Shown here one piece after another: positions 26,934 to 46,310 of a stretch of 64,000 bases of DNA. How positions within the stretch are numbered: position 1 is the first letter of the stretch; each line of letters opens with the position of its first letter. The stretch lies in the NCBI GenBank assembly GCA_014654705.1, contig JACVZY010000095.1, forward strand, positions 69,045 to 133,044. Direction: 5' to 3'. A model generated the notes under the pieces. The model was not told the DNA's origin, searched no databases, and saw only the letters and a program-made list of their open reading frames with translations. Source of the DNA: Ignavibacteria bacterium (GTDB lineage: Bacteria > Bacteroidota > Ignavibacteria > Kapaibacteriales > UBA4661). The translations under genes were made by a program, and so were the position numbers.

Positions 26934-26959
26934 ATTCCGTCATTTCAACCATAGTCGTT

Positions 26960-28282: not shown

Positions 28283-28874
28283 TCCAACGGCGACGAAACC
28301 AAACGATAGCGGACAGGTCATTCCGTTTTTCATTCGCCGCGCCAGAGAGGACGAAAAAGAGGTGCTGGAGCATATCGTGGCACTCTCCGTCCGTGAACTG
28401 AGCCGTGAGGAGTATAGCGAGCAGGAAATCGAAGGTGCACTTCGGACGGTTTTCGGTATTGATTCGGAGCTTGTCAAGGACGGTACATATTTTGCGGTAG
28501 AAGCTCGTATTGACGGTGCTGTACCAATAGTGGTTGCTTGCGGCGGCTGGAGTCGTCGCAAAACCTTGTTTGGCGGCGATCAATTTGAAGGACGCGAGTC
28601 CGAAGAGCTCGACCCCACGACGGATGCGGCGAAAGTGCGGGCATTTTTTGTACATCCGGCGTGGGCGAGGCGAGGAATCGGTACTCTTATTTTGGAAGAG
28701 TGTGAACGTGCTGCAAAAGCGCATGGATTCACACAATTAGAACTTATGGCAACATTGCCGGGTGAGAAGCTCTATCGCACCTACGGTTTTGAAGCAGGTG
28801 CGCCTATTCAGCATGCAATGGGGGAATATGGCACGATTACTTTTGTTCCGATGAAAAAAGCTATTTCACTTTGA
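28248..28874 (+). CDS. GNAT family N-acetyltransferase
   Basis: A 208-residue GNAT acetyltransferase with a poorly conserved N-terminal tail. The domain begins PFFIRRAREDEKEVLEHIV, and motif A is VRAFFVHPAWARRGIGTLIL with the acetyl-CoA loop R/RGIG. The C-terminal motif B is LYRTYGFEAG. The substrate cannot be inferred. It starts inside the end of the amidohydrolase-like gene (ATG at 28248), so the two are probably co-transcribed and coupled. Confidence 0.85.
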   Translation: MSNTKQNTGKNNPTATKPNDSGQVIPFFIRRAREDEKEVLEHIVALSVRELSREEYSEQEIEGALRTVFGIDSELVKDGTYFAVEARIDGAVPIVVACGGWSRRKTLFGGDQFEGRESEELDPTTDAAKVRAFFVHPAWARRGIGTLILEECERAAKAHGFTQLELMATLPGEKLYRTYGFEAGAPIQHAMGEYGTITFVPMKKAISL

Positions 28875-29004
28875 TGATGTATTATCCGATGATGATGTTA
28901 TCTCTTACTATAATATAGGTTTATCACGCTTTTCTTGTAAGCCAATCCTTCATGATTGGACGCATTTACTACTACTTTCCACATTTTTTTTGCTCGACTA
29001 GAGT

Positions 29005-29541
29005 ATGAACTATTCTCTCACATCCGCTTTTATTGAACGTGAGCTTGGTGCTGTTGTCCACGGCACAACCGTTCAATTATCGAATAATGTCTCAATGGTG
29101 TTTGAACGCGATGAGAACAATGAAGCCGTTGTGTATCTTGTTCGCGACGGCAAGCGCCGACCAATCGTTGTGATTGGAGATGATGACACTGACGTACAAT
29201 TATCCGTCAACGGCTACACGTATAGCGCCGAAGCACTATCCGACCGCGACAAGCATTTTCATAACTTGCTCAAAGAAACTGCTACTACCAAGTCGGGCAA
29301 TATGAAAGTTGTGGCGCCAATGCCCGGTCTGCTCAAAACGGTGAACGTGAAAGCAGGACAGCACGTCAAAAAAGGTGAGCGCTTGTTTATCTTGGAAGCC
29401 ATGAAGATGGAAAATGATATCAAATCGCCGATGGACGGTGTTGTTGGGACTCTGAGCGCAGCCCCCGGCACGGCGGTTGAGAAAAATTTTCTTTTGTGCA
29501 TGATTGAAGCTCCGACGGAATCTACCTCGTCAGGCGAGTAA
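29005..29541 (+). CDS. Biotin carboxyl carrier-like protein
   Basis: A 178-residue protein with a C-terminal biotinyl domain. The motif LEAMKMENDIKSPMDG places the biotinylated lysine at Lys134, and VVAPMPGLLKTVNVKAGQHV forms the first half of the barrel. The N-terminal 95 residues form a linker/beta domain (VQLSNNVSMVF, DDDTDVQLSVNGYTYSAE) as in the carriers of propionyl-/acyl-CoA carboxylases or oxaloacetate decarboxylase. No carboxylase subunit is nearby. It likely serves acyl-CoA carboxylation in trans. The ATG at 29005 has no strong ribosome site. Confidence 0.85.
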   Translation: MNYSLTSAFIERELGAVVHGTTVQLSNNVSMVFERDENNEAVVYLVRDGKRRPIVVIGDDDTDVQLSVNGYTYSAEALSDRDKHFHNLLKETATTKSGNMKVVAPMPGLLKTVNVKAGQHVKKGERLFILEAMKMENDIKSPMDGVVGTLSAAPGTAVEKNFLLCMIEAPTESTSSGE

Positions 29542-29688
29542 TGACCAAATGCTTAGGCTCGTCGGAACGATAAACGTACAACAAAAATAAACTTGGCGCG
29601 GTATTTGAGAGGTCAAAGGTGATGCGCACTCCGTGTGTCATTCTGGGAACGAAAAGTAAATCTTGTTTCACCTCAATTTCTACATATT

Positions 29689-30555
29689 ATGCGATATTCA
29701 GCAGCTCTTCTCGCTTTGATGGCAGTAGCCGTTGTCGGCTGTTCCAAGTGTGGCGGTCAAGAAGAAGTTATTCGGCAGGTTGATGCAGAAAAAACAAATC
29801 TCGTAGCGGAAAAATCGCTCACCGACAGCCTCTATCAGCAAACGTTGCGCCAAGTGGACGAAATGATGAGTGTCCTTTCGGCGCTTGAAGCAGAAGAAGG
29901 TATTGTCAAAACAATGGGACCGGAACGCGGCGAATCGGCAAACGATTTCCGTAAGCGTATGGAAGATATTGCCCGCCGGATGAACGAAAAAACCGCGATG
30001 ATTCGCAAACAAGCGGACGAAATTCAAAATCTCAAGAACAAGCTTGCCGCAACGGAGAAAAAACTTGCGCTCGTAACCCAAAAAGCGGACTCGCTTGGTC
30101 GTATCGTGAGCGAGCAGCAACAGGAAATCGTCTCCTTACGCCAGCAACTTGCCACCTCGCGCCGTGCGATAGATTCTCTCAAAGCAAAACTTGCTGAAAA
30201 AGACCAAATCATCAACAGTAAAGTCAAAGAGCTGAACACCGCATATTATGTGGTCGGCAAACGCGACGACCTGATGACAAAGGGTGTCATTGATAAACAA
30301 GGGCAGGTATTGTTTTTTGGTGGACGTATCTCTGTGAAGCAAAACTTTGACCTCAAAGACTTTACGAAAATTGATATTACGTCGCTTCGAGAACTACAAA
30401 TTCCCGCAGCAAAAGATAGAACATCACTTGTGTCCAATCACGATGCTGATACTTTTGAGATTATCGCATCCGGCGAAAGCCAATGTGTTCTGAAAATCAA
30501 AGACGAGAAAGCCTTCTGGAAAAATGCGAAGTATCTCGTCGTGATGACCGAATAA
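29689..30555 (+). CDS. Coiled-coil lipoprotein
   Basis: A 288-residue exported lipoprotein. The signal sequence (residues about 5-19) ends in a lipobox VAVVGCSKCGG, lipidated at Cys19 or nearby. Residues about 60-190 are a long coiled coil (heptads with repeated K, E, Q and L; for instance IQNLKNKLAATEKKLALVTQ and SLRQQLATSRRAIDSLKAKL). The C-terminal about 100 residues are a small beta-rich domain (AYYVVGKRDDLMTKGVIDKQ, then SGESQCVLKIKDEKAFWK) also seen in uncharacterised Bacteroidota proteins. The frame is open from 29635, but the ATG at 29689 starts the signal. A terminator follows. The role is unknown; an envelope or surface spacer is possible. Confidence 0.72.
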   Translation: MRYSAALLALMAVAVVGCSKCGGQEEVIRQVDAEKTNLVAEKSLTDSLYQQTLRQVDEMMSVLSALEAEEGIVKTMGPERGESANDFRKRMEDIARRMNEKTAMIRKQADEIQNLKNKLAATEKKLALVTQKADSLGRIVSEQQQEIVSLRQQLATSRRAIDSLKAKLAEKDQIINSKVKELNTAYYVVGKRDDLMTKGVIDKQGQVLFFGGRISVKQNFDLKDFTKIDITSLRELQIPAAKDRTSLVSNHDADTFEIIASGESQCVLKIKDEKAFWKNAKYLVVMTE

Positions 30556-30642: not shown

Positions 30643-31836
30643 CTAATTACTGTTCCAATCGTGTCCTTGCAGAGGGTGCATCGTAATATACTGCACCGAA
30701 GCATATCCTTCGTCGGTCTGGGAGAGCGGCGCAAGCGGAACAACGACCGTAACGGATGTGCCTTCGTTGCGTTTACTTTGAATATCTAATTTGCCACCAT
30801 ACAGTAACAAAATCTGCTGTACAATTGGCAAGCCAAACCCCACACCTTGCTGTTCAAATCGTTCGCGACCAAACTGGTTGAAAGCACCAATTCGTTGAAG
30901 GTCGCCGGACTCGAATCCATGACCGTTGTCACGGATGGTGATTGTACAGTACTTGTCATCGTGCCTCATCGTGAGATCAATGGCTGTGCGTGGTTCAGAA
31001 AACTTACAGGCATTTGTGATGATTTCCGCAATTACAAAGCGGACGTGCTGCGCCCGCATTTGTACGGCATACTCGCTGTCGTCTAGGTGAAAAGTAATAT
31101 CGCTCAGGCGGTCAAACGCTGCGAGCGTATCGTGGGCTATTTCTGTGGTGAGGCTTGTCATTCCATATGTGGCGAATTGCCCCGACGACGACAACGGCAC
31201 TTCAAGCGCCTGCTCATCAAGATTGAGCTGCTCTAATTCAGCGTAGAGCAAGAATTTTTCAGCCGTTTGGTGCAAACGATTGATAGAGGACTCCAAGTAA
31301 CGATATGCCATTGGCTTTTCGTCTTCTTGTAGTGCATCCTGCCGAAGAAGATTGATAAAGCCTATCAGTCCATTGAGAGGAGTACGAAATTCGTGCGGCA
31401 AAACATACGAAATTCGCAGCGCCACCTCATGCACCGTCCGTTGTACTTCTTGCTTAACAGCTTGTATGCGCTCATACTGGCGGAGAATCGTTGTCCTGAC
31501 ATCTGATTCGCTCAGAGGATGCGCCATTATATCATCTGCTCCCATTTCGAGAGTCGCCTTCGCAAGTGCGTAATCCGCTTTGGGAAGCACCGCTATCAGT
31601 GCCATTTGCGGGCGAAATCGAAGAAGACTATCGAGCGAAATTAAATCCTCAACGGTACAATGACGCATATCCACAATGACAAGTCCTTGCTTTTGTTCTT
31701 GTAGCACGGCGACTGCATCCGCTCCAAGCACAACGCTTTCGGTTGTAAATGAGGGCAGAATAGCAGAAATCATAGCAAGAAGGGTATCTTGTTTGTCGCT
31801 GTCGTCTGTGCTTTCTATGCAAAGAATCTGCTTCAT
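30643..31836 (-). CDS. Receiver-histidine kinase with degenerate receiver
   Basis: A 397-residue protein: an N-terminal receiver-like domain (residues 1-118) and a C-terminal histidine kinase. The receiver keeps an aspartate at the phosphorylation position (Asp56 in GLVIVDMRHC) but lacks the usual conserved lysine (MAHPL instead of KP) and the Thr/Ser. The kinase has the H-box SYVLPHEFRTPLNGL (His148), an N box (IITNACKFSEP), G1 (DNGHGFESGD) and a G2-like GVGFGLPIVQQIL. It has no membrane segment. It is the last gene of a nine-gene signalling run on this strand. The low-identity receiver may be a non-phosphorylatable sensor or docking module. Confidence 0.8.
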   Translation of the reverse strand: MKQILCIESTDDSDKQDTLLAMISAILPSFTTESVVLGADAVAVLQEQKQGLVIVDMRHCTVEDLISLDSLLRFRPQMALIAVLPKADYALAKATLEMGADDIMAHPLSESDVRTTILRQYERIQAVKQEVQRTVHEVALRISYVLPHEFRTPLNGLIGFINLLRQDALQEDEKPMAYRYLESSINRLHQTAEKFLLYAELEQLNLDEQALEVPLSSSGQFATYGMTSLTTEIAHDTLAAFDRLSDITFHLDDSEYAVQMRAQHVRFVIAEIITNACKFSEPRTAIDLTMRHDDKYCTITIRDNGHGFESGDLQRIGAFNQFGRERFEQQGVGFGLPIVQQILLLYGGKLDIQSKRNEGTSVTVVVPLAPLSQTDEGYASVQYITMHPLQGHDWNSN

Positions 31837-31962
31837 TGTACGGATATGAATAGCAAGAATGGGGCTGGTAATTGATGCGCTATGCGTAATCTAATGATTC
31901 TGAACGCGATTCACAAACTCTTCCACGACAATTTTGAATTGTGGTGTTTTTGGCTTGTGCCC

Positions 31963-32463
31963 TTACGCTTCCACCATAAGCAGCGGTACGGTCAGTGAGA
32001 GCATAGAAGCGACAGTATTCAAGTATTCAATCTCACTGTTTGTCCAGTCTTTGCGGTGTTCGCAATGCTCGCAGCAAATTACGCCGACAACCTTTCCTTT
32101 GATGATAATTGATACATCAAGCAAGGATTTAATTTCAAGTGGGTCGAAGTATGTCTCGGCAAAGCAGGACGTAAGCGGGTGACGAAGTGCGTCGGGCGCA
32201 CAGATAGTGTCGCCATGCACCATTGCACCAAAATACTGAGGATAATCTTCTTGATACAAGGAAAAATTGGAAGAGTATTCTTCGGTGCGGCTGTCGAATA
32301 AGACCTCGCAGGTTAAAATGTCTTGATATTCATTGAAATACCAGACACTTGCTCGTGTGGAGCCTATTTGCTCAACGATGGTTTGTATTACTGCGCGGTG
32401 AAATTCAGCACTATCTAGCGTATGTGATTGTGCCTGGCGAACAAGATGCTGTAAGGTTTTCAT
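31963..32463 (-). CDS. Stand-alone GAF domain protein
   Basis: A 166-residue protein that is essentially one GAF domain: RASVWYFNEYQDILTCEVLF, then LLDVSIIIKGKVVGVICCEH and a terminal SEIEYLNTVASMLSL. GAF domains bind cyclic nucleotides, small molecules or a chromophore; no chromophore cysteine is in the standard phytochrome position, though Cys-rich GVICCEHCEH is present. There is no output domain, so it probably feeds a neighbouring kinase or receptor. The start at 32463 is an ATG. Confidence 0.82.
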   Translation of the reverse strand: MKTLQHLVRQAQSHTLDSAEFHRAVIQTIVEQIGSTRASVWYFNEYQDILTCEVLFDSRTEEYSSNFSLYQEDYPQYFGAMVHGDTICAPDALRHPLTSCFAETYFDPLEIKSLLDVSIIIKGKVVGVICCEHCEHRKDWTNSEIEYLNTVASMLSLTVPLLMVEA

Positions 32464-32573
32464 GGTGTTTCAAAAGATAGTGGATGTAAAGATAAGAAGT
32501 GGATGTAAGAAAATTACCAATGGAATACATTGGGGTACTCAGAAACAACATCACCGAGAGAGACAATACCGCT

Positions 32574-32957
32574 TTAGTTTTTCAGCCAGAGGGCGGCTTC
32601 CGATTTATCACCAAAATTATGCACTTCAAGATTGTCGAATTTGCTCACAATATTTTGTACTGACATTTTCGCAATCGCACTTTTGGGAATGATAACTGCC
32701 ATACGCTTGATACCACCGGAAATAGCGCGGGGAAACCAATCTGTATTCGACCAATGTTGGTCATCGGGAGAAATAGCGCTCATATTACTGGTATCGCCAA
32801 GCCACTTCATTGCGCCTTTTTGGCGGACAAGTTCCAGCCCTTTATTGAGCACTTCCTTAAATTCATCGCCTTTGGCAAATGCCTTCCATTGTATTTCAAC
32901 AGCTTGTAATTCAGCATTCCACAATACAAATGCAACGCGAGATTCAAAAAATACCAT
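32574..32957 (-). CDS. STAS/SpoIIAA-like single-domain protein
   Basis: A 127-residue single-domain protein of the SpoIIAA-like/STAS type. Recognisable pieces are LQAVEIQWKAFAKGDEFKEV, KWLGDTSNMSAISPDDQHW and WFPRAISGGIKRMAVIIPKS, with SVQNIVSKF later. STAS-like proteins act as phospho-switch antagonists in partner-switching or as small regulators. No serine-phosphatase or Rsb-type kinase gene is adjacent, but it lies between a chemoreceptor and a GAF protein, consistent with a signalling role. The start is the ATG at 32957. Confidence 0.72.
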   Translation of the reverse strand: MVFFESRVAFVLWNAELQAVEIQWKAFAKGDEFKEVLNKGLELVRQKGAMKWLGDTSNMSAISPDDQHWSNTDWFPRAISGGIKRMAVIIPKSAIAKMSVQNIVSKFDNLEVHNFGDKSEAALWLKN

Positions 32958-33022
32958 GATCGTTCTCCGAAAAAGTAGAGATAAAAAGGGAAAATTGTTG
33001 TGTTTCTTGATTCAAAATGTGA

Positions 33023-34888
33023 TTACTGCATAGCAACAGTTGTGCTGCGTACGGGCTGCCGCGAAACCTGTTTTTTTACGCCTTCCTGATGCTCACTTCT
33101 AGCTTTTGCCTCTAGAGCAAATTGAGCCAATGATGAGCCTTTCAGTATGCGGCGATGAGCGGCGGTGCTAGAGACTTCTTCCACCAAGTTTTTGGGAATG
33201 TCGCCTTGGTGATGGGTTTTGAAGACGGAAGATAATTGGAGCAGGCGCTCCATGCGCTTGCTGAGATTGTCTGTGGAGGTGCTTACTTCGTGGACGATAA
33301 CCGATGTTTCTTCTGTTGCGGCGGCTATTTGCTGGATACTGGAGTTGATTTGCTGATTCGATGAGGCTTGCTGCTCGGTTGCCAACGCAATTTCTTCCAC
33401 TTTCATGCGAATCACCTCGTCGCCTGCCACAATCATCGCAAAAGAAGAACTGGCATCACCGGCAATCGTAATTCCTGCACTGACTTCATGGTTGCTGGTG
33501 CGAATACCTTGCATGACAGTTCCAGTCTGGGTTTGAATTCCTTTGACCGTTTGCGAAATTTGTTTCGTAGCAGAGACCGTGCGCTCGGCGAGCTTGCGGA
33601 CTTCGTCGGCAACGACCGAAAAGCCGCGCCCATGATCACCGGCACGCGCCGCTTCGATAGCGGCATTCAGTGCCAAGAGATTTGTTTGGTCGGCAATTTC
33701 ATGGATTACCGAGACGATTTCGCCGATTTCCGCGCTGCGGTTGTTTAGGTCTTCCACCAGATGTTCGGAGCTTTGAGCAATGCTAACAATTTGCTCCATT
33801 TTGGTCATCATTTGTTCCATCAGCGCACCACCGCTTTGTGCATTGTGGACGTTTTCCTTTGAAGCAAGCGATGTGTCATTGGCGCACTCCATATTTTGGC
33901 GAACACTTTGGAACATCTGCTCGACAGCAGCGGCAATATGCGTCATTTGAGACGATTGCTCCTCGACGGCAGCAGCTATTTGTGCGGCAGCATAGTTCAC
34001 TTCGGCTGTTGTGTTGGCGGTAACATGAATTGCATCCTGCACCTCGGCGACCATGTTGTGAAACGTCATCGCTACGTGGTTGAACCCCTGATAGAGTTGG
34101 CTTACTTCGTCATCACCATCAACGGCAATCTTCATGGTCAAATCGCCCTCTGCCAGAGCGTCCATAGCGGTAAGCATAGTGTGGACACCATCAGCCAAAC
34201 GCGCTTTTTGCTGTTCGGAAGCAGCAATGGCATGGGTGATTTTTTCTTCAATGTGATTTTTTTCTTCCGCCAATGCTTCTGCGAGTGCTTCAGACTTTGC
34301 CGCTTCTTCGGCAACGCGTGTGCGCTCTGCCTCAATGTGTTTGAGCATAGTGCTTTTGGCTGTTTCCAATGCCGCCAGACAGATGGTGGTAAAAAGCATC
34401 AAAAAGAACGTTGCTATAAAACCACTTATTCCATTAGCTGAAGCAAAAACGTGATTCATTTCGGCGAGACCAATCATGGTCAGCATAGAAACCACGCCAC
34501 CGATAATGCTAAATCGCCGACCGCTCGTCATAGCGGCTATTAGCGGTACGATGATAAACCAGGGCATGGACTGGACTATAGTCTCACCAGTGATAAAGCA
34601 CAGTGCAACAACCACCGAATATGCCTCACCGGTGATGATTGTTCCCGCAATAGTTGGTGATTGCGTCCGACGCAGCACCAATAATGGAATCATATAAGCG
34701 ATAACTGCCGTTGTGCAGGTAATGAACATCATCAGCGGCAGACTCATCACTAACGAATACACGGCAAAAAAAGCATTCAGTGAAGCAAGAGAAGTAGCGA
34801 GCAGAACAATGTTTTTTGCTTTGGCAAATGTATTGACATCGGTGCGAGTTTCCTCAGTGATGAAGAGAGCAAATAAAAAATCCAGCAT
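33023..34888 (-). CDS. Methyl-accepting chemotaxis protein with polytopic membrane N-terminus
   Basis: A 621-residue chemoreceptor. The N-terminal about 170 residues form five to six helices (for example [60 protein letters not shown]) without a periplasmic ligand domain. A coiled region with a HAMP-like segment ([19 protein letters not shown]) leads to the signalling hairpin, [20 protein letters not shown] followed by [18 protein letters not shown]. The tip is complete, so it should couple to CheA/CheW, but neither gene is here. The frame is open to 34948; the ATG at 34888 begins the membrane part. The sensor may report membrane energy state or lipid, as in other membrane-embedded receptors. 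Confidence 0.88.
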
Positions 34889-34958
34889 AGTGATGATGAT
34901 TAAAAGATCAGATGAATATTGAGTAAATAGTTTGCAATGGAAAATCATCAGGTTTTAT

Positions 34959-35543
34959 TCAAACAGTAACGCACACTGTGGTCAGTATGCTGCTGAGTAT
35001 TGGTTGAAGATAGACGAGTTGCTTATCAAGGACATTTTTTTCATTGCCAAGGGCATCCAGCGCTTGTAGCATAGCCGCTTGCGTAGGCATAGCAAGTAAG
35101 TACCCGTGCGCACCCGAACGAAAGACCATCTTTACGAGCGATGGCATTGTATAATCTGCCAGCACAAGAATCTTGATTGCGGGATTGCTGCGGTGAATAG
35201 CTGTAATTGCTTCAAAGCCTTTCATAGACTGCGATGAAATTTCAATCACGACAACCTTGGGATGAATCTCAGAAATTGAGGCAACTAGCTCCGCCGGAGA
35301 AGCCATAACTGCCACAGCTTGAAAGCGCGATGCTTTCAAATACCGCGTTAATCCTTGCAATACGGGCTGACTATTCGCTGCGACTGCTATCACTGAAGAA
35401 GGCTCTGCTGTCTCCCGCAACGTGTATTGCTGTGCAGCATGAACCCCAAATTGAATAGGGGGAACCATTGTCGAATTGCTCAGACGCAATTTGGTCTTGT
35501 GCAGAATTGCAACATCGGACACGGATGTGGACTCAGTTCTCAT
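34959..35543 (-). CDS. Degenerate receiver-like protein (NarL-type fold, no HTH)
   Basis: A 194-residue protein whose residues about 50-165 have a receiver fold: SSVIAVAANSQPVLQGLTRY, then PKVVVIEISSQSMKGFEAI, ILVLADYTMPSLVKMVF and SGAHGYLLAMPT. The acidic pair before the first helix is missing (AANSQ), the phosphoacceptor aspartate is glutamate (Glu101), and the conserved lysine is absent (YLLAM). The C-terminal HTH of NarL-type regulators is absent, with the protein stopping shortly after the receiver. Glutamate can mimic phospho-aspartate, so a locked or structural role is plausible. It lies between the LuxR-type regulator and the chemoreceptor. Confidence 0.7.
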   Translation of the reverse strand: MRTESTSVSDVAILHKTKLRLSNSTMVPPIQFGVHAAQQYTLRETAEPSSVIAVAANSQPVLQGLTRYLKASRFQAVAVMASPAELVASISEIHPKVVVIEISSQSMKGFEAITAIHRSNPAIKILVLADYTMPSLVKMVFRSGAHGYLLAMPTQAAMLQALDALGNEKNVLDKQLVYLQPILSSILTTVCVTV

Positions 35544-35798
35544 AGCTCAGGGATGTATCAGGAAATGAAAAGATACTTGCTGGATGGTCAAGCGTTAATT
35601 TCTGATACAAAATTACAGTATTTGCGAGGGCAATGCTATACGGTCAAATACCTGATTATTACGCACGTAGGAGGCAAGAAAACATACGCGACTTGGCACA
35701 AAAAAGCGCGTAAAAATACGTGGATATTCAGAGGCTCGGGCAACGAGGACTTGATTCAAAAAAGTCATTTGTTCCCAACGTGAAACCTGACTCCGAGA

Positions 35799-36452
35799 CT
35801 AGAGCGTCCAGCCTTGCTGTGCGGCATATTTTGCCAAGCCAACAACACTTTTGAGGTTCAGCTTACGAAGGATGTTCATACGGTGTCCCTCCACAGTGCG
35901 AACACTGATGAAGAGTGTATCGGCAATTTCAGCATTGGTGCGGTCTTGCACAAGGAGCTTGGCAACGGCAATCTCGCGTGGGGTAAGAATTTCTTCGCCG
36001 GGTGTGGTAGAAAGAGAATCATTTTTTTTGCGGGAGATTTCTTTTTGCAGGAGAATTTGCGCTACACCGGCAGAAAAATATTGTTTGCCCGCACTAACGG
36101 CTTTCAGGGCGGCGAACAGGTCAGATTTAGCAGAATTTTTGAGCATATACGCGTGTGCTCCGGCTTCGATTGCCTGCGAAATAAGACTTGCTTCATCGTT
36201 CATGGTGAGCATGATAACACGAGTCGAGGGGTGATCGCGGTGAATTTGCGACGCAGCCTCAATGCCGTCCAGTTCGGGCATATTCACATCCACTATGGCA
36301 ATATCGGGCTTGAGTTCGTGTACCTTGCGGACAGTTTCTACGCCATCATATGCGTAACCAATCACGCGGTACTCATCGTGCGATAATAGTAATGAAGCCA
36401 ATCCCTCGGCAAACATCGGGTGGTCGTCGGCAATAAGAATGGTAGTGGGCAT
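35799..36452 (-). CDS. LuxR/NarL-type response regulator
   Basis: A 217-residue regulator: receiver (ILIADDHPMFAEGLASLLL, phosphoacceptor Asp55 in IAIVDVNMP, conserved lysine in YMLKNSA) and a C-terminal LuxR helix-turn-helix (LTPREIAVAKLLVQDRTNAE, VRTVEGHRMNILRKL). It should bind DNA when phosphorylated, probably by the HisKA_3 kinase encoded 76 bases upstream on the same strand. An in-frame GTG at 36461 is less likely than the ATG at 36452. Confidence 0.92.
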   Translation of the reverse strand: MPTTILIADDHPMFAEGLASLLLSHDEYRVIGYAYDGVETVRKVHELKPDIAIVDVNMPELDGIEAASQIHRDHPSTRVIMLTMNDEASLISQAIEAGAHAYMLKNSAKSDLFAALKAVSAGKQYFSAGVAQILLQKEISRKKNDSLSTTPGEEILTPREIAVAKLLVQDRTNAEIADTLFISVRTVEGHRMNILRKLNLKSVVGLAKYAAQQGWTL

Positions 36453-36528
36453 AGAGAACACGAGGTTATATGAAAAAAATACGGAGGAAGAAAATACTCA
36501 TTTTTTTCGTAGAATTTGGATTCCTGCA

Positions 36529-38040
36529 TTACGCTGCAAGAAGCGGAATATCTATCGTCGCCGCCATACCTTCGCCGGGTGTGGAATGCAGCTCGGCAGT
36601 ACCGCCCAGCATTGTTGCACGGCTGATAATGTTGTTCAGACCAATGCCCTCGTGGTCGGCATGAAGATCAAAGCCTTTGCCGTCGTCTTCGTACATCACC
36701 AGCAACGCTGATTCCTCGCGGAGCGCCTGAATACTGATACGTCTAGCATCGCCATACTTCAGAGTGTTATTCAGCAATTCTTGCACAATGCGATATAGCG
36801 TCAATTCCTGTACAGCATCCATACGCACTTCCAGTGCAGAAAGTTCGGTGTCAATCATTATCGCCGTTGACGCAGTAACTGAAGAGCAAATATCCTGAAT
36901 TGCTGCGCTCAAGCCTAATTGCTTCAGAGCAACCGGCATGAGCTGGTGTGAGACAGAACGCACTTCTTGTACAGCGGAATCCAGAAGCACAATGCTCTCG
37001 TGCAATTGTGCCGCCTCGTCCGGCGCAATCGAATGAATCTGCTCTTGCACAGCGCTCACGCCAATTTTCACCACCGAAAGCATTTGCCCCACGCCGTCAT
37101 GCAAATCTTTGGCGATGCGGCTTCGCTCGTGCTCTTGTCCTTCGACAACAGCTTGAAGAGTGCGCTGTTTCTGGCGTTCAAGCTCCTCAAGCAAGCGGCT
37201 TTTTTCCAGTAGTGCGGCATTGAGGCGTTCTTCGCGCAGTCGTAACTCTCGCTCTGAGCGCTTGCGCTCGCTCACATCTCGTGTGAACACAACAACACCC
37301 GAAATCTCACCCGACACTGAAATAATGGGATTAAATGACATTTCGGTATCAATCACTCTGCCATCAATCATGTCTTGGTACTCTGCAATTACTTGTTTTC
37401 CTGTTTGTAATACACGGTCGTAGTACCCTTTCCACAGCGAACGGCTATTATGACCTGTTTCGGGAAAATAGTCAAGAACGCTATGACCAAGTATAGCCGT
37501 CTGCCGAGTGGCTATCTGGATAAATGCCTGAAAAGAAGCATTGACCGCCAGAAGGCGATATTCTGTATCAATAGACCAAATTGGGTCATTTGTGTTGTTG
37601 ATCAGGGCGCGGAGCTGCTCTTCGCGGCGGCGAAGTGCTTCTTCGGCGTGTTTGCGCTTTTGGATATTCGTCCATTCGCGCGAGATGCGCTGAACGGTGG
37701 CGGGCATACGACGAAACTCTTCCGGCGATTTGACAATGTAGTCCATCGCGCCTGCTTTCATTGCTTCGACAGCGAGAGATTCATTTCCAAAACTGGTCAT
37801 AAGTAGAAACGGAGCATTAATAGGCACTCTGCGCAATAAATCCATTCCATGACCATCCGGTAAATTCCAATCCACAATCACGACATCAATACTACCAGTG
37901 GCAGCGTTTGCCAGATATTGTTCCGCACCGCGAATGGTGTCAAAATGTTCCAAATGCGTGTCGTTGTGCATTTGCTCGAATGCTCGTTGTATGAGTTCGC
38001 GATGAGCCTCTTCATCTTCGACAAGAACAATCGTCGGCAT
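36529..38040 (-). CDS. Receiver-PAS-HisKA_3 hybrid kinase
   Basis: A 503-residue protein: receiver (residues 1-125, IVLVEDEEAHRELIQRAF, Asp57 in VVIVDWNLP), a PAS domain (about 140-260, NNTNDPIWSIDTEYRLLAVN, ending DVSERKRSE), then HisKA_3 dimerisation (ERSRIAKDLHDGVGQML, His314) and a HATPase with LVMYEDDGKGFDLHADHEGIG. HisKA_3 kinases pair with NarL/LuxR regulators, and one is encoded just downstream (35799-36452), so the pair is likely cognate. The N-terminal receiver takes phosphoryl input from another kinase, perhaps the TPR/PAS kinase via the adjacent single receiver. The ATG at 38040 is 19 bases after the next gene's stop. Confidence 0.9.
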   Translation of the reverse strand: MPTIVLVEDEEAHRELIQRAFEQMHNDTHLEHFDTIRGAEQYLANAATGSIDVVIVDWNLPDGHGMDLLRRVPINAPFLLMTSFGNESLAVEAMKAGAMDYIVKSPEEFRRMPATVQRISREWTNIQKRKHAEEALRRREEQLRALINNTNDPIWSIDTEYRLLAVNASFQAFIQIATRQTAILGHSVLDYFPETGHNSRSLWKGYYDRVLQTGKQVIAEYQDMIDGRVIDTEMSFNPIISVSGEISGVVVFTRDVSERKRSERELRLREERLNAALLEKSRLLEELERQKQRTLQAVVEGQEHERSRIAKDLHDGVGQMLSVVKIGVSAVQEQIHSIAPDEAAQLHESIVLLDSAVQEVRSVSHQLMPVALKQLGLSAAIQDICSSVTASTAIMIDTELSALEVRMDAVQELTLYRIVQELLNNTLKYGDARRISIQALREESALLVMYEDDGKGFDLHADHEGIGLNNIISRATMLGGTAELHSTPGEGMAATIDIPLLAA

Positions 38041-38059
38041 GATTCTTCCTTATTCTGCA

Positions 38060-38497
38060 TTAAGGGTTTACGTTCCAGCCTAACCAATAGAAACCAAGGT
38101 CGTTCATCAGTTGAGCAAATTTCTGGAAATCCAGAGGCTTGACAATATAGCTATTGGCGCGGCGCAGATAGGCAGAATTGACATCCGCTTCGGCGTGAGA
38201 AGAGGTTAGTACGACAATAGGGATAGACCGCAAGGATTCATCATCTTTGACCATCTGCAAGACGGTTAAGCCGTCTATTTTAGGTAATCTGAGATCGAGC
38301 AAAATAAGATTGGGGCGAGGATGAGCCGTAATATCGGTGTATTTACCCTGATGCTGCAAATAGTCCATCGCCTCTGCTCCGTCCTCTACGTGTGTGATAG
38401 AAGTAGCCACACGATGACGTTCAAGATTACGAATCACCAATTCGGCATGGTCAAGATTATCTTCAACCAAAAGAATGACTAAACGAACATTTTCCAT
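38060..38497 (-). CDS. Single-domain response regulator (Rcp1-like)
   Basis: A 145-residue receiver with no output domain: VILLVEDNLDHAELVIRNL, phosphoacceptor Asp68 in LILLDLRLPKIDG, VVLTSSHAE and the lysine in YIVKPLDF. The extra loop after the fourth strand is typical of Rcp1-type regulators of phytochrome or multi-PAS kinases. It is encoded directly downstream of the TPR/PAS kinase, its likely donor, and 19 bases before the next kinase, so it may shuttle phosphate between them. Confidence 0.92.
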   Translation of the reverse strand: MENVRLVILLVEDNLDHAELVIRNLERHRVATSITHVEDGAEAMDYLQHQGKYTDITAHPRPNLILLDLRLPKIDGLTVLQMVKDDESLRSIPIVVLTSSHAEADVNSAYLRRANSYIVKPLDFQKFAQLMNDLGFYWLGWNVNP

Positions 38498-38601
38498 AGA
38501 GCACAGATGAAGAAAAGTAAAAAATCTATTGCCAATAAGTGTATGCAGTTAGGATAGGCAGAAGTGCAATGAATAAGGCGGTTTCAAAATACTGAAAAAA
38601 T

Positions 38602-41600
38602 TTATGATTCAGCGGGACTTTCTTTACCGCCAAATTCTTCAATATTTTCAGCTTTGCAGGTAAAATAAAATGTCGCTCCCTGACCCAGCTCGCTTTCTAC
38701 CCAGATACGTCCGCCGTGCAGTTCGATAATCCGTTTGACAAGTGCCAAACCAATGCCGGTGCCCTCAGAGCGCTGGTCGAGCTTGTCAAACAGCCCGAAA
38801 ATCATTTCCTGATATTCTTTCGCAATTCCGATGCCATTATCGCGCACATAGAAAATCGGCAGAATGTCGTCGCGGCGAACACCAATCTCAATGTGTGGGT
38901 CGCTTTGAGTACCCATAAATTTCGACGCATTTTCAATCAAGTTTTGAAAGACCTCGCGGAATCGTGCTTTGTCGGCAAGAATGCGGGGCATATCGGGCTG
39001 CACGGTAACACGGATACGACGCGGTGCGAGAATACCATGCAAGACCTCGACGGTTTCATTTGCCAGTACGGTTACATTGAAGCGCTCGGATGGGTTAATT
39101 ACTCTGCCAACACGAGAAAGCTCCAAAAGGTCTTCCAGAAGATGCTGCATTTTATTGGCAGCATTGTCAATGCGTTGCATATCGCGCGGGACACGGCTAT
39201 AATCCTGAGCTTGCAGGTCTTCTTGAATCATTCCTAAAAAGCCCTTGATGGTAATAAGCGGGCTTTTCAAGTCATGCGAAATGGTATAGATAAAACGCTC
39301 CATTTCGGCAGTTTTTGTCTCAAGCGCATGAAGCTGCTCTTGAATAAGCAATTCCGCTTCTTTGCGCTCTGTAATATCCTGGATAGTGCCGTATAATCGA
39401 ACGGCTCGTTGCTCTTGGTGTTCCACATTACCTTGCACATAGACCCATTTATAGCGACCTTTTTCTGTAACCAATGGTATTTCGTACTCGAATTTTTCTC
39501 CCGTTTTCATCGCATTGCCAAAGGTCGTCCTGAGCATTTGGTGATAGTCGGGCGAGTAGAATTTGAGTACCGTCTCGAATGTGAGATAGGTTCCAATTTC
39601 CAAGTCGAAAATTTGATAGGAAGTATCCGTACCTGTGAGCATATAATCTGCACTTGTCATGTCAATTTCCCATCCGCCCACTTTGGCAATTTTACTTGTC
39701 TGTTGCAGAAGTTCTTCGCTTTTACGAAGGCGTTCCTCTGCACGCTTAATAGGCGTAATGTCTCGATTGAACGCCACCACGCCTGTAACAAGCCCTTCAT
39801 CATTGTAAATCGGGTTGAACATGATTTCTGTGTATGCTCGTTCCTCACCCAAACCGTGCGCGTAGACTGTTGTAAACTGTTCGCCCGCAAGAACACGGTC
39901 ATATGAATTTTTCCAAACGTTCATTTCCGCCACCAAGGAAGGCGGCAAAAAGCTCAACACATCCATACCCGGCTTAATGTCAATCCCAAAAGCATTGTTT
40001 GCAGCTTGCTTATAGGCAGAGTTAAAGATGAGGAGACGATAGTCTTTGTCTATGGAATAAATGCTGTCGCTGGTGCTTTCGATCAGTGCCGTTAGTTGGA
40101 GTTCACGCTCTCGCAGTTGCCGTTCAGCCGAGCGGCGGTCGGTGATATTCACGAATGTAATAACCACCGCCGAAGGCAGAGTGTCTTTTGATTGGTAGTA
40201 CAATGGGCGGGAGTTTACGGCAATCCATGATACGTCTCCGTTGGGCTTGACAATTCCCATGACAACATCGGATTCCGGTTTTCCGCTTGCCAGAGTGGTC
40301 ATTGCCGGATGCTCGTCCCCACGGAACGGCGAACCATCCTCGTGAATGGTACGCGGCTGAAATTCTAGGGATGACGAACCAAGCAGTTCTGCCTCGCTAA
40401 CCCCCAAAATGCGTGCGGCTGCTGGATTGCAAAATGTTACTTTGCCTGTTCGGTCTTGCAACACAAGCCCTTCCGACATTGTTTCCACGATAGAACGCAA
40501 GCGCTCTTCATTTTCACGCAGGGCAAGTTCCGCATTCTTGCGTTCGGTAACATCCGCAAACGTGACAACGACATTTGAGGGATGCTCCTCGCCGGATTTG
40601 AAAATCGGCTGAGCGTTGGTAGAAATCCATGAACGTATGCCGTTGGGCTTGGACACACCCATCAGAACACCTGATGTAGGCTTTCCACTGCGAAGAGTAA
40701 GCACCGACGGGCGGTCATCGGGCATAAATGGCGAGCCATCTTCATGGATAACACTCCAACCCGGGTCATATGAAGATCGTCCATAAAGTTGGTCATTCGT
40801 CAAGCCAAGAATACGCGCGGCAGAATCATTACTGAAGAGGATATTATCTTGGTGGTCTTGTACAAGCAATCCTTCCGACATTGCCTCCACGATAGAGCGC
40901 AGGCGCTCCTCGTTTTCCCGTAAGGCAAGTTCCGCGTCTTTACGCTCGGTAATGTCCACAAAAGTCACTAAGGTTGCCTGTTCGCTTTGGTATGTGATGA
41001 GAAGTCCCGACACCTGCACCCACACGTAATGCCCATCCTTATGGCGATAGCGCACCTCCACGGGTTCGACGTGCATATTGACATCACGTAAACGTTCTGA
41101 GTACCTTTTCTGAACAAGTTCTTTATCGTCATCATGAATAAGTTCGTCAATAATCGGGATATGCTTAAAATCCTCATCGCTGTATCCCAAAATTCGCCGC
41201 AACGCTTCATTCGTGAAAACGTATCGGTTATTGACGTTGACGGCGACCCCGACACTCATCATACTAAGCATCGTGTCCATATCGTTATTGAGCTGTCGGA
41301 GTGACTCTTCGGCATGCTTGCGCTCAGTGATATCAATATCCATGCAGACAAAAAGATTCTTTCCTTTACCTGCATTGGGGTCGGCGTTAGGAATAGCAAA
41401 TGTTGTTGACTGTCCATAGCCTGCGCTGCCGTCTTTGCGGCGAAATTGATATTCAAATGGTCCCAAAATTTCGCCTGTTTGCTGAATCGTCGTGAGGGAC
41501 TGTTTGAACCCATCTGCTTCTTCCTTTGAGTAGATGAGTTTGTCAAGTGTCTGACCAGTTGCTTCCTCTGCACTCCAACCGTAGATTTTTTCGGAAGCAC

Positions 41601-43239
41601 TATTCCAAAGCACAACCTCTGCATCGCTATTATACCACTGAATAGCAACATTGGGCGTGTTATAGAGTGTTGCTTTGAGCGCCTCTTCGCTTGCGCGGAG
41701 TTTTTGCTCTGCCTCCACGCGTTGCGAAACATCGCGTGTGGTATGAATAAATTCCTTGATATTGCCATCGTTACCCAGAATTGGCTTAAACGTAACCTCT
41801 ATCCATCGATACTCACCGCTTTTGGTGCGAAACCGAACAGTGTGTAAGCCGGTACTTTTGGTTTCGGTAATGTATTTATAGGATTTTTTGACACCAGCGA
41901 CATCATCGGGGTGAATAAGAGGATAAGGATTTTTTCCAACAAGCTCGGTGGGACTGTAGCCCAGCAATGATGTAATCGAAGGGCTGGTGTATTGATAGAT
42001 TCCATGGATATCGTGCCGCGTAATCACATCACTGGTGTAGGTGGCAAATATCTTCAGTTCCTCATCACGCTCTCGTGAGCGTTTATTGGCGAGAGTACGC
42101 CATGCGAAAATACCACCGACAATCAGAATGAGAAGAGCAACAGCAGCGATAATCAGTGCCGTTTGCTTCAAGCCTTCGTTCGCAGCCTCACGTTGCAAGA
42201 GAAGTATCTGCTGGTCTTTGAGTAATTGCTCGAAGCGCTTAATTTCAAGAGCCTTCTGTTTATTTCCCTCATCGTTTGGCTGCTGATTAATGTTCACAAA
42301 TTGCTTGTAATATCGCAGCGCTTCGGCAGGTTTATTGAGGGCTTCATAGACTCGCGAGAGATACAGAGCGCTTTCCTCTCGAAGCATTTGCACCTGAAGT
42401 GAATCTCCCATCATCAGCGCATATTCCAAGCGTGGTATTGCCTCATTGTACCGCTTGAGCTGAAATAGCGCACCGCCAATAGTAAAGGCGGCTTCTCCCA
42501 TTTCGAGAATATAACCTTTGCTTTCGCTGAGATTGTACCCTTTTTCATAAAGAGAAAGTGCTTTTTCTCGCTCTCCTTGCAGTTCAAATACATATCCTAA
42601 ACGGTTCAGTGTATTGATATACTCACCATGTCGCTGCGCCTGCTCAAAAACAGGCAGAATACGTTGAAAAATTGCTACCGCTTCAGTATATCTGCGCTGG
42701 CGCACATACACTTGCCCCAAACTCCCCCAAGCACGCGCAAATCGTACGCTATCCGATGCCCGCAGCGCAAACGCCATTCCACGTTCCGCTGCAACCCTTG
42801 CAGAATCGTAATAAAGCACTACACGGTATTCTTCAGCAAGGTAATTATAGGCAAGAGCAATCGCAGCATTATTTTTTGATGCCATTGCTAAGGATAATGC
42901 CTGCCGACAGTAATCCAAAGCACGCGCACTTAGTCCTCTATATCCAAATGACATGGCAAGTAACCCATACCCCTCGGTCAGAGCCATGGTGTCTCGCAAG
43001 CGTTGGGCAATGGAGATAGCATATGTCGCATAATCTTCAACGTGCTGGAGATTAGTATGTTCAGCATGATACCCCATTTGGAGCAGTGTCCGCACTTTTA
43101 CCGTATCGTTTGTCGTTGTACGCAGCACCGTTGAGAGCGAGTCAAATGCTTGTGTTCGTGCGGGCAGGTGCGCTAAGGAGCAGTATAGAAAGACAACAAC
43201 CAGTGCATATACTATTTGAACAATGCGTTTCGTACTCAT
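38602..43239 (-). CDS. TPR / multi-PAS sensor histidine kinase
   Basis: A 1545-residue membrane kinase. A signal peptide or first helix (residues about 7-31) precedes about 330 residues of TPR-like repeats (for example YGLLAMSFGYRGLSARALDY, YTEAVAIFQRILPVFEQAQR), then one membrane helix (IIAAVALLILIVGGIFAWRT, about 362-381). The cytoplasmic part holds seven PAS/PAC units; PAS 4 and 5 are near-duplicates starting NEERLRSIVE. The kinase core has the H-box ISHDLKSPLIT (His1322) and a HATPase with NLIENASKFM, DNGIGIAKEYQEMIFGLF and GIGLALVKRIIELHGG. The TPR part is probably periplasmic and senses a protein or peptide partner. Its likely regulator is the single receiver just downstream. Confidence 0.92.
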   Translation of the reverse strand: MSTKRIVQIVYALVVVFLYCSLAHLPARTQAFDSLSTVLRTTTNDTVKVRTLLQMGYHAEHTNLQHVEDYATYAISIAQRLRDTMALTEGYGLLAMSFGYRGLSARALDYCRQALSLAMASKNNAAIALAYNYLAEEYRVVLYYDSARVAAERGMAFALRASDSVRFARAWGSLGQVYVRQRRYTEAVAIFQRILPVFEQAQRHGEYINTLNRLGYVFELQGEREKALSLYEKGYNLSESKGYILEMGEAAFTIGGALFQLKRYNEAIPRLEYALMMGDSLQVQMLREESALYLSRVYEALNKPAEALRYYKQFVNINQQPNDEGNKQKALEIKRFEQLLKDQQILLLQREAANEGLKQTALIIAAVALLILIVGGIFAWRTLANKRSRERDEELKIFATYTSDVITRHDIHGIYQYTSPSITSLLGYSPTELVGKNPYPLIHPDDVAGVKKSYKYITETKSTGLHTVRFRTKSGEYRWIEVTFKPILGNDGNIKEFIHTTRDVSQRVEAEQKLRASEEALKATLYNTPNVAIQWYNSDAEVVLWNSASEKIYGWSAEEATGQTLDKLIYSKEEADGFKQSLTTIQQTGEILGPFEYQFRRKDGSAGYGQSTTFAIPNADPNAGKGKNLFVCMDIDITERKHAEESLRQLNNDMDTMLSMMSVGVAVNVNNRYVFTNEALRRILGYSDEDFKHIPIIDELIHDDDKELVQKRYSERLRDVNMHVEPVEVRYRHKDGHYVWVQVSGLLITYQSEQATLVTFVDITERKDAELALRENEERLRSIVEAMSEGLLVQDHQDNILFSNDSAARILGLTNDQLYGRSSYDPGWSVIHEDGSPFMPDDRPSVLTLRSGKPTSGVLMGVSKPNGIRSWISTNAQPIFKSGEEHPSNVVVTFADVTERKNAELALRENEERLRSIVETMSEGLVLQDRTGKVTFCNPAAARILGVSEAELLGSSSLEFQPRTIHEDGSPFRGDEHPAMTTLASGKPESDVVMGIVKPNGDVSWIAVNSRPLYYQSKDTLPSAVVITFVNITDRRSAERQLRERELQLTALIESTSDSIYSIDKDYRLLIFNSAYKQAANNAFGIDIKPGMDVLSFLPPSLVAEMNVWKNSYDRVLAGEQFTTVYAHGLGEERAYTEIMFNPIYNDEGLVTGVVAFNRDITPIKRAEERLRKSEELLQQTSKIAKVGGWEIDMTSADYMLTGTDTSYQIFDLEIGTYLTFETVLKFYSPDYHQMLRTTFGNAMKTGEKFEYEIPLVTEKGRYKWVYVQGNVEHQEQRAVRLYGTIQDITERKEAELLIQEQLHALETKTAEMERFIYTISHDLKSPLITIKGFLGMIQEDLQAQDYSRVPRDMQRIDNAANKMQHLLEDLLELSRVGRVINPSERFNVTVLANETVEVLHGILAPRRIRVTVQPDMPRILADKARFREVFQNLIENASKFMGTQSDPHIEIGVRRDDILPIFYVRDNGIGIAKEYQEMIFGLFDKLDQRSEGTGIGLALVKRIIELHGGRIWVESELGQGATFYFTCKAENIEEFGGKESPAES

Positions 43240-43402: not shown

Positions 43403-43431
43403 AAAGCCAGATGTAAAAAACATCTGGCTTT
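43403..43431 (-). terminator. Intrinsic terminator (minus strand)
   Basis: AAAGCCAGATG (43403-43413), 7-base A-rich loop, CATCTGGCTTT (43421-43431). Read on the minus strand, the stem is followed by a T run, so it ends transcription after the DUF420 gene. Confidence 0.88.
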
Positions 43432-43479: not shown

Positions 43480-44058
43480 TCAGAACTTGTAGTACGGCGC
43501 AAGCATAAAATAGACAATCACGCCCGTTGCTGTTACATACACCCAGATTGGAAGCGTATAACGAGCAATTTTCTTATGCTTGGCAAATTCTCCGCGCCAT
43601 GAACGGCTAATGGTAAAAAGCGCAAGCGGTAGTATTAGTGCCGCAAGTACAATATGCGTCAGTAAGAGTGTGTAATAGATGGGGCGAATCATGCCTTCAC
43701 CGCCGAACTTCGTGGCGGGCGCTTGAGAATGATAAATCACATACGATACCAGAAAAACACTGGAGAGTAGAAAACACGCGACCATCAGCATCTTGTGAGC
43801 ATTATACTGCTTGCGCCGCACTGCTATATATCCTGCAATCAAGAGCAGAGTACACGAACCATTCAGAAACGCGTGGAAGCGTGGCAAATACGACACATTC
43901 ACGCCGCCGCCCAGCGACAGCGCTTGCGGGAAGTAGATAAGAAACGCTACTGCAAGGCAAATAACGATGGACACCGCATAGATAATGAGCGACAACGACT
44001 TCTCGCTCATGGATTTCAATACACCGCTTTCTGCGGCAAGACCTTGTAAGTTGCTCAT
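43480..44058 (-). CDS. DUF420 membrane protein (CtaM/YozB-like)
   Basis: A 192-residue protein with five membrane helices (for example LSLIIYAVSIVICLAVAFLI and ILPLALFTISRSW). Conserved histidines in RFHAFLNG, YNAHKMLM, VIYHSQAP, LLLTHIV and FAKHKKIARYT match DUF420, whose members (CtaM, YozB) assist assembly of haem-copper or cytochrome oxidase. No oxidase or haem gene is adjacent. The ATG at 44058 lies 51 bases after the hisG stop on the same strand, so the two may share a transcript. Confidence 0.85.
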   Translation of the reverse strand: MSNLQGLAAESGVLKSMSEKSLSLIIYAVSIVICLAVAFLIYFPQALSLGGGVNVSYLPRFHAFLNGSCTLLLIAGYIAVRRKQYNAHKMLMVACFLLSSVFLVSYVIYHSQAPATKFGGEGMIRPIYYTLLLTHIVLAALILPLALFTISRSWRGEFAKHKKIARYTLPIWVYVTATGVIVYFMLAPYYKF

Positions 44059-44109
44059 AGTATTGGGGTAGGGTGATAATACGATACTGTTATTTTACAA
44101 AAATCATTT

Positions 44110-44970
44110 TCACAGAATCATCTTTTCAATCGGCACCACTAAAATGCCTTCCGCGCCTGCTTCTTTTAGCTTGCCGATGCTTTCCCAGAATGTATCTTCC
44201 GGTACAACCGAATGAACCGAACTCCAGCCACTTGTTGCAAGCGGAGTTACAGTCGGGCTTTTCATTCCGGGCAAAAGACTGATAATTGTTTCCAGCGCAT
44301 GATTCGGTGCGTTCAGAACAATATACTTTGTTTTTTTTGCCCGTCCTACGGACTGAATCCGAAAGCGCAAATCGTCCACAATGCGCTGCTTGTCGGCAGT
44401 GAGTGGACGCGAGATAAGCACTGCCTCTGAGCGAAAAATTGTTTCTACCTCCACAAGCCCATTACTGAGTAGTGTCGAGCCGGAACTGACAATATCACAA
44501 ATCGCCTCAGCAAGACCAATGCTTGGTGCTATCTCCACCGAGCCACTAATTTCGTGGATTTCTGCGCTGACTCCATGCTGCGCTAAAAATTCTTTCAAAA
44601 TATTCGGGAACGACGTAGCAATGCGCTTCCCGTGCAAGTCTTGAATACCAGAGTAAGCCGCGCCTTTCGGCACAGCCAGCGAGAGTCGGCAACGCGAGAA
44701 GCCAAGCCGTTCAACGATGTCCACCGGTTGCAGGAGTGAAGAACGTTCTTCGGCAATCACATTTTCGCCGATGATTCCCACATCGGCAACACCGTCAGCG
44801 ACGTATTCAGGAATATCGTCATCGCGTAAGAACAGAAATTCGAGCGGAAAATTGTAGGCGGTGGCTTTGAGCTTACCACCGGATTTGCCGAAGTCAATGC
44901 CGCACTCTTGCATGAGTTCCAGCGATTCTTCGGTGAGTCGTCCTGATTTTTGAATAGCAATACGAAGCAT
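44110..44970 (-). CDS. hisG: ATP phosphoribosyltransferase, long form
   Basis: A 286-residue HisG_L enzyme. It catalyses the first step of histidine synthesis, joining ATP and PRPP. Motifs are IAIQKSGRLTEESLELMQEC, GVADVGIIGENVIAE and RIATSFPNILKEFLAQHG; ICDIVSSGSTLLSNGLVEVE forms the PRPP-binding loop. The C-terminal about 75 residues (NAPNHALETIISLLPGMKSP, then AGAEGILVVPIEKMI) are the allosteric ACT-like domain that binds histidine, so feedback control is likely. It is separated from the rest of the his genes. The neighbour serA is 55 bases upstream on the same strand, and that gap carries heptamer repeats. Confidence 0.95.
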   Translation of the reverse strand: MLRIAIQKSGRLTEESLELMQECGIDFGKSGGKLKATAYNFPLEFLFLRDDDIPEYVADGVADVGIIGENVIAEERSSLLQPVDIVERLGFSRCRLSLAVPKGAAYSGIQDLHGKRIATSFPNILKEFLAQHGVSAEIHEISGSVEIAPSIGLAEAICDIVSSGSTLLSNGLVEVETIFRSEAVLISRPLTADKQRIVDDLRFRIQSVGRAKKTKYIVLNAPNHALETIISLLPGMKSPTVTPLATSGWSSVHSVVPEDTFWESIGKLKEAGAEGILVVPIEKMIL

Positions 44971-44990
44971 GAAAAGATAATGTTGGGTTC

Positions 44991-45011
44991 TGAGTTTTGA
45001 ATGGTGAGTTG
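44991..45011. repeat. Heptamer repeat TGAGTTT-TGAATGG-TGAGTTG
   Basis: Three consecutive related 7-mers in the 55-base gap between serA and hisG. Similar style to the repeats at 23437-23457. Confidence 0.6.
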
Positions 45012-45025
45012 TAGAGAGAAAAACT

Positions 45026-46234: not shown

Positions 46235-46250
46235 AGACGGTAGAATAATG

Positions 46251-46289
46251 AAAAAGGCTCATCGTACAGCCCAAGACTATACGATGAGC
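46251..46289 (-). terminator. Intrinsic terminator after the DegT-like gene (minus strand)
   Basis: Arms GCTCATCGTA (46257-46266) and TACGATGAGC (46280-46289), 13-base loop, followed on the minus strand by C and T5 (AAAAAG at 46251-46256). Confidence 0.82.
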
Positions 46290-46310
46290 GCAAAATATAA
46301 CGAAAATTTA

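Follow-up and report, generated by a model that had tools for sequence, protein, structure and literature searches.

A block of nine signalling genes was investigated in a 64,000-nucleotide stretch of contig JACVZY010000095.1 of an Ignavibacteria bacterium (assembly GCA_014654705.1); the whole stretch is called the window here. The genes are labelled P9 to P1 in order of transcription and all lie on the minus strand. With moderate confidence, the block is read as a set of modules around a chemoreceptor under two-component control, in which the kinase P7 would act through the response regulator P6 on a promoter in front of the pseudo-receiver P5 and the chemoreceptor P4, and the receptor would join distant CheA/CheW. 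The genome of the window, which is Kapabacteria-like (G000; 5.72 Mb in 118 contigs, 99% complete), was compared with that of a sister species of the same genus (G001), with further members of the genus or family (G002-G009) and, for single searches, with additional genomes.

A promoter-like element between P6 and P5

The four genes at the centre of this reading, here called the quartet, and the features of the gap between P6 and P5 are as follows.

36529..38040, minus strand: P7, kinase of the type receiver-PAS-HisKA_3-HATPase, catalytic motifs present
35799..36461, minus strand: P6, response regulator of the NarL/FixJ type (receiver and GerE)
35709..35720, minus strand: palindrome CGTA-N4-TACG in the P6-P5 gap
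35641..35664, minus strand: proposed P6 binding element, GCGTAATAATCAGGTATTTGACCG
35608..35615, minus strand: TAnnTTTG box, TAATTTTG, exactly 25 nt past the element
34959..35543, minus strand: P5, solo pseudo-receiver
33023..34948, minus strand: P4, chemoreceptor with several membrane helices, HAMP and an MCP signalling domain

The intergenic gaps from P9 to P1 measure, in the direction of transcription, 104, 19, 67, 255, 10, 65, 110 and 126 bp. An earlier sequence-only reading had called the gaps short, which holds for seven of them but not for the longest, the 255-bp gap between P6 and P5. This gap has a promoter-like architecture, in which GCGTAATAATNNNGTANTTNNNCG is followed after 25 nt by TAnnTTTG (57 bp overall). 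According to PMC9723704, the sigma-A box of Flavobacterium is TAnnTTTG, occupying -12 to -5; if this position is applied, the element falls between -61 and -38. On its own, TAnnTTTG occurred 40 times in the window versus 39 expected, and a sigma-70 scan yielded 14 sites versus 21 in shuffles.

The 17-base element GCGTAATAATNNNGTANTTNNNCG was searched for with up to two mismatches in ten whole genomes (G000-G006 and G010-G012), and in G009 by loci only. The ten genomes gave 16 matches, compared with nine for the reversed control. Four of the matches were perfect, namely those in the window, in its G001 counterpart, and before the P5 and the MCP genes of another G001 locus (C180); a fifth perfect match was found before P5 of G009:C239, so that the element precedes P5 in three genomes (the window in G000, two loci in G001, and G009:C239). 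The box stood exactly 25 nt further on at the only match in G000, at five of the seven in G001, and at none of the eight in G002, G004, G005 and G006 together, while G003 and G010-G012 contained no match at this threshold. Two further G001 sites with the box, each with two mismatches to GCGTAATAATNNNGTANTTNNNCG, were located before a CheA gene (C149, L253 1-1483; Hpt and H-kinase_dim, the contig ending inside the gene) and before a PAS-LytTR gene that is followed by a receiver gene. A 21-base composite of element and box, the first two bases being free, was also searched for with up to four mismatches in 2.04 Mb of loci, a set that overlaps and was partly fetched because of the pattern itself. 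Only the same seven sites were returned, six of them perfect and the PAS-LytTR site with one mismatch. Every genome in which element and box were found together has a quartet-type P6, P6 being known from the loci fetched.

Besides the GerE helix-turn-helix, P6 has the receiver residues of NarL/FixJ-type regulators: an acidic pair, the acceptor aspartate and the lysine. At the four P5 loci with the element, the recognition helices of P6 are identical save one G/A residue. The helices at C93, C299 and C114 differ, and other palindromes precede the P5 genes there, which suggests that recognition helix and DNA site vary together across the loci seen.

The palindrome CGTA-N4-TACG was considered as an operator of the window and rejected, as it occurs once versus 0.53 expected. 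In addition, its G001 counterpart forms an 8-bp stem followed by a T run, which makes a terminator of P6 the likelier identity of the palindrome. Over eight regions upstream of P5-type genes, ten palindromes with a 4-nt spacer and arms of at least 5 were counted, compared with a mean of 1.6 in Markov shuffles (0 of 500 shuffles reached ten). This apparent excess is only a hint, given that the spacer was picked after looking and that two regions are near-identical. An automatic score of dyad, spacing and box, which favoured 25 nt in five of eight regions and any other offset in at most four of eight, gives weak support; the 25-nt register of G009:C299 was seen by eye only, the script favouring another place. 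As the palindrome and dyad scores are weak, the case rests on the 17-base element.

The quartet and its proteins

Quartet-like P7, P6, P5 and P4 genes recur together, rearranged, at a second locus type (G001:C180/C112 and G009:C239), where P6-P7 is divergent from P5-MCP. The MCP gene of G001:C180 continues onto C112 via an exact 141-bp overlap; that of G009:C239 probably continues onto C335, although no exact overlap was found. In both cases the MCP is followed by an OprB-type carbohydrate porin (L144 3872-5293 and L162 4080-5405; 73% identical), a hint of sugar sensing. With P6 78% identical between the two as well, these loci look orthologous, and therefore only two quartet lineages are known. 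No P9-, P8-, P1-, P2- or P3-like genes were observed in the stretches fetched around this locus type, whose contigs are incomplete. P7-P6-P5 without a nearby MCP was seen at G000:C93 and, on short contigs, at G009:C299 and G006:C114; at G001:C225 a P5 lies behind a truncated kinase, P6 not being found there. Both P7-P6-P5 and P5-MCP groupings recur despite low sequence identity. No P7 match above 41% identity was obtained in G002-G006, the five genomes of the genus in which element and box were not found together.

In the window copy of P5, described earlier as a degenerate receiver, every catalytic position is indeed replaced: the acidic pair, the acceptor aspartate (by glutamate), the T/S residue and the lysine. 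A search with P5 gave 35 match rows, eight of which, at eight loci, are solo open reading frames (ORFs) of at most 200 aa, the rest lying within longer frames. Seven of the eight solo loci adjoin a HisKA_3/NarL pair and four adjoin an MCP. Among seven aligned members the lysine is lost in all, the T/S residue in six and the aspartate in five (replaced by glutamate in the window and G001, by tyrosine in three); both acids of the acidic pair are lost in four and one acid in three. All seven retain the motif GAx(G/A)YLLxMP. The receiver fold is indicated by Pfam and by a structure model in which residues 51-194 are well predicted (block means 80-96), with the receivers of VraR, LiaR, RcsB and DesR, some in DesK-DesR complexes, as best PDB matches. 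Identity to the G001 orthologues is 90% for P8, 85% for P7, 80% for P1 and 62% for P5; a dN/dS of 0.16 (NG86) at this last identity indicates that P5 is maintained as a protein, less strictly than its neighbours.

P4 has the MCP signalling domain and the HAMP domain behind membrane helices that are expected of a chemoreceptor. Because homology to G001 begins near residue 18-20, its start is probably M21 (about 34888) rather than that of the ORF, in which case the P5-P4 gap would be 70 bp. Its signalling domain is 95, 63 (partial), 55 and 54.5% identical to the receptors of quartet loci and at most 48.2% identical to those of 39 other loci compared, a sample of receptors. The membrane part of P4 (33023-33600 region; residues 13-194) has no Pfam match, hydropathy suggests about six helices in it, and full-length relatives are common in the genus.

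A Pfam scan of the nine block proteins and ten neighbours detected no cheA, cheW, cheR or cheB, in agreement with the sequence-only reading. That reading had offered distant partners or a coupling to the neighbouring kinases for the receptor. The candidate chemotaxis partners are distant: G000 contains 47 chemoreceptor matches and six CheW-domain matches, including complete CheA genes at C59 and C32; a kinase-side link is suggested by the joint recurrence of P7-, P6-, P5- and P4-like genes, and this link is probably transcriptional.

The nine-gene block and its conservation

All nine ORFs previously noted as co-directional lie at 30643-43239 on the minus strand, and their described domain contents were borne out by Pfam, including seven PAS stretches in P9. 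The remaining features of the block are the following.

43403..43431, minus strand: stem-loop and T run resembling a terminator, in the DUF420-P9 interval
38602..43239, minus strand: P9, membrane histidine kinase of 1545 aa with TPR, seven PAS, HisKA and HATPase
38060..38497, minus strand: P8, single receiver, aspartate and lysine present
32574..32957, minus strand: P3, SpoIIAA-like protein (PF11964)
31963..32463, minus strand: P2, solo GAF protein
30643..31836, minus strand: P1, kinase of 397 aa with degenerate receiver, HisKA and HATPase

The 12-bp stem with its T run (43431-43403) sets the block apart from the upstream HisG-DUF420 genes. Catalytic motifs are retained in P9, P8, P7 and P6. 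P1 had been taken for a receiver-kinase hybrid; the kinase part stands, while the receiver scores below the Pfam cut-off (21.7 vs 30.2 bits) and is without the conserved lysine.

One G001 contig carries DegT-SerA-HisG-DUF420-P9-P8-P7-P6 up to its end, and a second begins with P5-P4-P1, followed by convergent neighbours matching those of the window. The ends of these contigs overlap exactly over 127 bp of the P6-P5 stretch, and therefore the gene order is the same in G001: seven of the nine genes are in the same order and place, and P3 and P2 are deleted. The P4-P1 interval is 330 bp there versus 1186 bp in the window. It retains a scar of P3 (57 of 69 bases alike; a start codon and 27 codons, then a stop, leaving a 28-codon remnant), and the stretch upstream of P1 can still be aligned. 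From these remains it is most likely that the nine-gene state predates the split of the two species and that P3 and P2 were lost in G001. The gene-order comparison in relatives thus bears out the block as a conserved unit, and its conservation in a second species shows a grouping beyond chance.

Block orthologues were present in two of eight genus members examined. Outside G001, the best matches reached 41% for P7, 34% for P5 and at most 35% for P1; P4 reached 36% over most of its length and 54% over part of the signalling domain (G009). Both flanks (DUF420 and a 306-aa protein) are present in six of the eight genomes G002-G009, each time on different contigs; DUF420 was not found in G002, and G008 has no close 306-aa protein. 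No matches to the nine genes were found in the flank stretches fetched from G002-G007 and G009. As regards a recent mobile insertion, the window contains no tRNA, and a simple empty site was not seen in the six relatives with both flanks on separate contigs. The flanking gene groups themselves (25719-30555 and 43480-48821) are conserved in the genus. As they occur there on separate contigs, with no block beside them, the block probably sits at a rearrangement point.

P3, previously noted as STAS-like, is a SpoIIAA-like protein: it matches PF11964 above the cut-off (28.1 vs 25 bits), and its model (pLDDT 94) has the SpoIIAA/STAS fold, with 2q3l as first PDB match (E 3.5e-4), followed by SpoIIAA complexes and RsbS. 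A PDB profile search with P3 gave only three matches, to unrelated proteins (E 0.016-0.13). The Pfam model matched in three of ten genomes (above cut-off in two) and misses the domain in the G000:C75 fusion described below; most of the SpoIIAA-like loci were therefore recognised by BLAST-type similarity to P3. In 26 genomes, 18 rows of P3 relatives at 16 loci were obtained. At five of these the domain lies in the MCP frame or directly behind it (G007:C36, frame-split), at six the same strand carries an MCP no more than about 4 kb away (the window, G000:C51, G001:C101, G002:C215, G005:C34 and G006:C140), and at five no MCP was seen in the fetched stretch. With a chance of about 8% for an MCP neighbour at a random site (47 MCPs in 5.72 Mb), six of 11 non-fused loci correspond to a binomial probability of about 1e-4, uncorrected for orthology or for the window as starting point. 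MCPs with a C-terminal P3-like SpoIIAA domain were found in five genomes in all:

L157 7233-9203 (G000:C75)
L156 4177-6444
L159 5429-7693
L160 4553-6745
L158 4177-6369 (frame-split)

By these fusions the SpoIIAA-like family is tied to chemoreceptors, in line with the mention, as unpublished work, of homologues in numerous chemoreceptors in the available part of PMC2954209.

P1-like kinases adjoin P3 relatives at six loci, one per genome in six genomes; such kinases are numerous, with at least 11 close ones in G000. P2 has no gene in its place in G001, and its solo GAF relatives in G005 and G008 were found in other contexts without an MCP match. The P9 orthologue of G001 has 1808 aa (L133 3097-8523) versus 1545 aa in the window, a difference in length that would fit gain or loss of PAS units between the sister species. 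Among the NCBIfam matches listed, only the PAS model passes its cut-off. A second G000 block of the same order (C75, L234 7233-14825) comprises a PAS kinase, a single receiver 51% identical to P8, a receiver-PAS kinase in a split frame, and an MCP-SpoIIAA fusion.

Proposed wiring, rival readings and known systems

In the wiring proposed here, P7 would phosphorylate P6, as the families and adjacency of the two suggest. Phosphorylated P6 would bind the element at 35664-35641, which is observed together with its geometry, and activate a promoter in the 255-bp gap. P5 and P4 would thereby be made together, and P4 would join the distant CheA/CheW arrays of the genome. P5 is not open to ordinary phosphorylation; most likely it would serve as a feedback component or adaptor, docked on P7 or P6. 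P9-P8, as a second kinase-receiver pair, may feed the receiver of P7, and P3 might tune the chemoreceptor by contact, as its fusions suggest. Because the P5 promoter in G001 is shared with a second chemoreceptor and cheA, co-regulation of the quartet with chemotaxis appears the economical reading. A bolder version, by analogy with DesR on DesK, makes P5 a protein bridge docking on the HisKA_3 kinase, so that receptor supply and kinase output would form a closed loop, and in G001 the switch would also supply its own CheA, so that a two-component system would have overall command of a chemosensory array of its own; this we consider unlikely.

Several observations weigh against two-component control of the chemoreceptor. 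NarL-type sites are often palindromes, and the window element is not palindromic (2 of 4 pairs). At the two cheA loci of G000 the element was not found with up to four mismatches in 21, the quartet was seen in two locus lineages only, and some P7-P6 pairs are unaccompanied by P5 or MCP (G009:C68, G018:C12 and G000:C104).

The sequence-only reading had raised the possibility of one phosphorelay/chemoreceptor system of nine genes; in the rival built on it, the chemoreceptor would feed the neighbouring kinases directly. The genes are co-directional, seven are order-conserved in G001 with the other two deleted there, and P7, a soluble kinase with an input receiver, could take phosphate from P9. 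The promoter-like element in the 255-bp gap, which argues against co-transcription of all nine genes, and the recurrence of only four of the nine elsewhere point instead to separate modules, and P4 has an ordinary MCP signalling domain in a genome with CheA and CheW, which leaves the single relay unlikely; the idea of one system, reasonable as regards the quartet, is unproven where the other five genes are concerned. A chance pile-up of independent signalling genes would be conceivable in a genome with 47 chemoreceptors, 221 first-look P7 candidates and at least 11 close P1-like kinases, and P9-P8 and P2-P1 were not seen beside the quartet elsewhere. The recurrence of P7-P6-P5 and P5-MCP at low identity, the shared and sharply spaced promoter element and the gene order kept in G001 make this explanation unlikely too. 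Unlikely, finally, is that the element belongs to another, global regulator and that P6 and the chemoreceptor are mere neighbours: its G001 copies before cheA and the PAS-LytTR gene, far from any P6 seen, would fit such a regulator, whereas P6 is favoured by the finding of element and box together only in genomes with a quartet-type P6, and by the covariation of recognition helix and site across the loci seen.

Control of P5-P4 by P7-P6, the reading preferred here, offers a testable link at the sequence level, in which one 57-bp promoter architecture joins chemotaxis genes to a two-component pair and a catalytically dead receiver, in a group that has received little study. If P6 does read the element, this would show how a genome with 47 chemoreceptors can time the deployment of one receptor. 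The eight pseudo-receiver loci are available for asking what dead receivers do.

Among the papers listed in literature searches, none describing this gene arrangement was found, and the parts are of known kinds. P7 and P6 resemble DesK-DesR, NarX-NarL and VraS-VraR in their HisKA_3 and receiver/GerE domains, and the P5 model lies near the receivers of VraR, LiaR, RcsB and DesR; P7 differs by an additional input receiver and PAS, and a solo pseudo-receiver follows here. Like other pseudo-receivers or atypical response regulators, of which FrzS is an example, P5 has the receiver fold with the catalytic residues lost, but its solo family comprises eight loci, of which seven adjoin a HisKA_3/NarL pair and four an MCP. 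Cph1-Rcp1 is a kinase-receiver tandem, as is P9-P8, a membrane PAS kinase with a single receiver (another lies at G000:C75); P9 differs in its TPR and PAS inputs, and Pfam finds no phytochrome domain in it. The chemoreceptors CtpL and CtpH are under PhoB control. P3 shares the fold of the SpoIIAA-like PF11964 protein 2q3l, treated in the available part of PMC2954209, and differs from the chemoreceptor fusions in being a separate gene that adjoins the chemoreceptor in the window. CtpL and CtpH of Pseudomonas aeruginosa are lowered by phosphate, according to PMC9864684, so that their expression tracks the nutrient state. They resemble P4, as proposed here, in being chemoreceptors whose genes are switched by a regulator outside the chemotaxis pathway; the putative regulator of the block is instead NarL-type, adjacent and accompanied by a pseudo-receiver, and in G001 a cheA bears the same element. 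The block is conserved, and its proposed wiring would be a modest new arrangement of these known parts.

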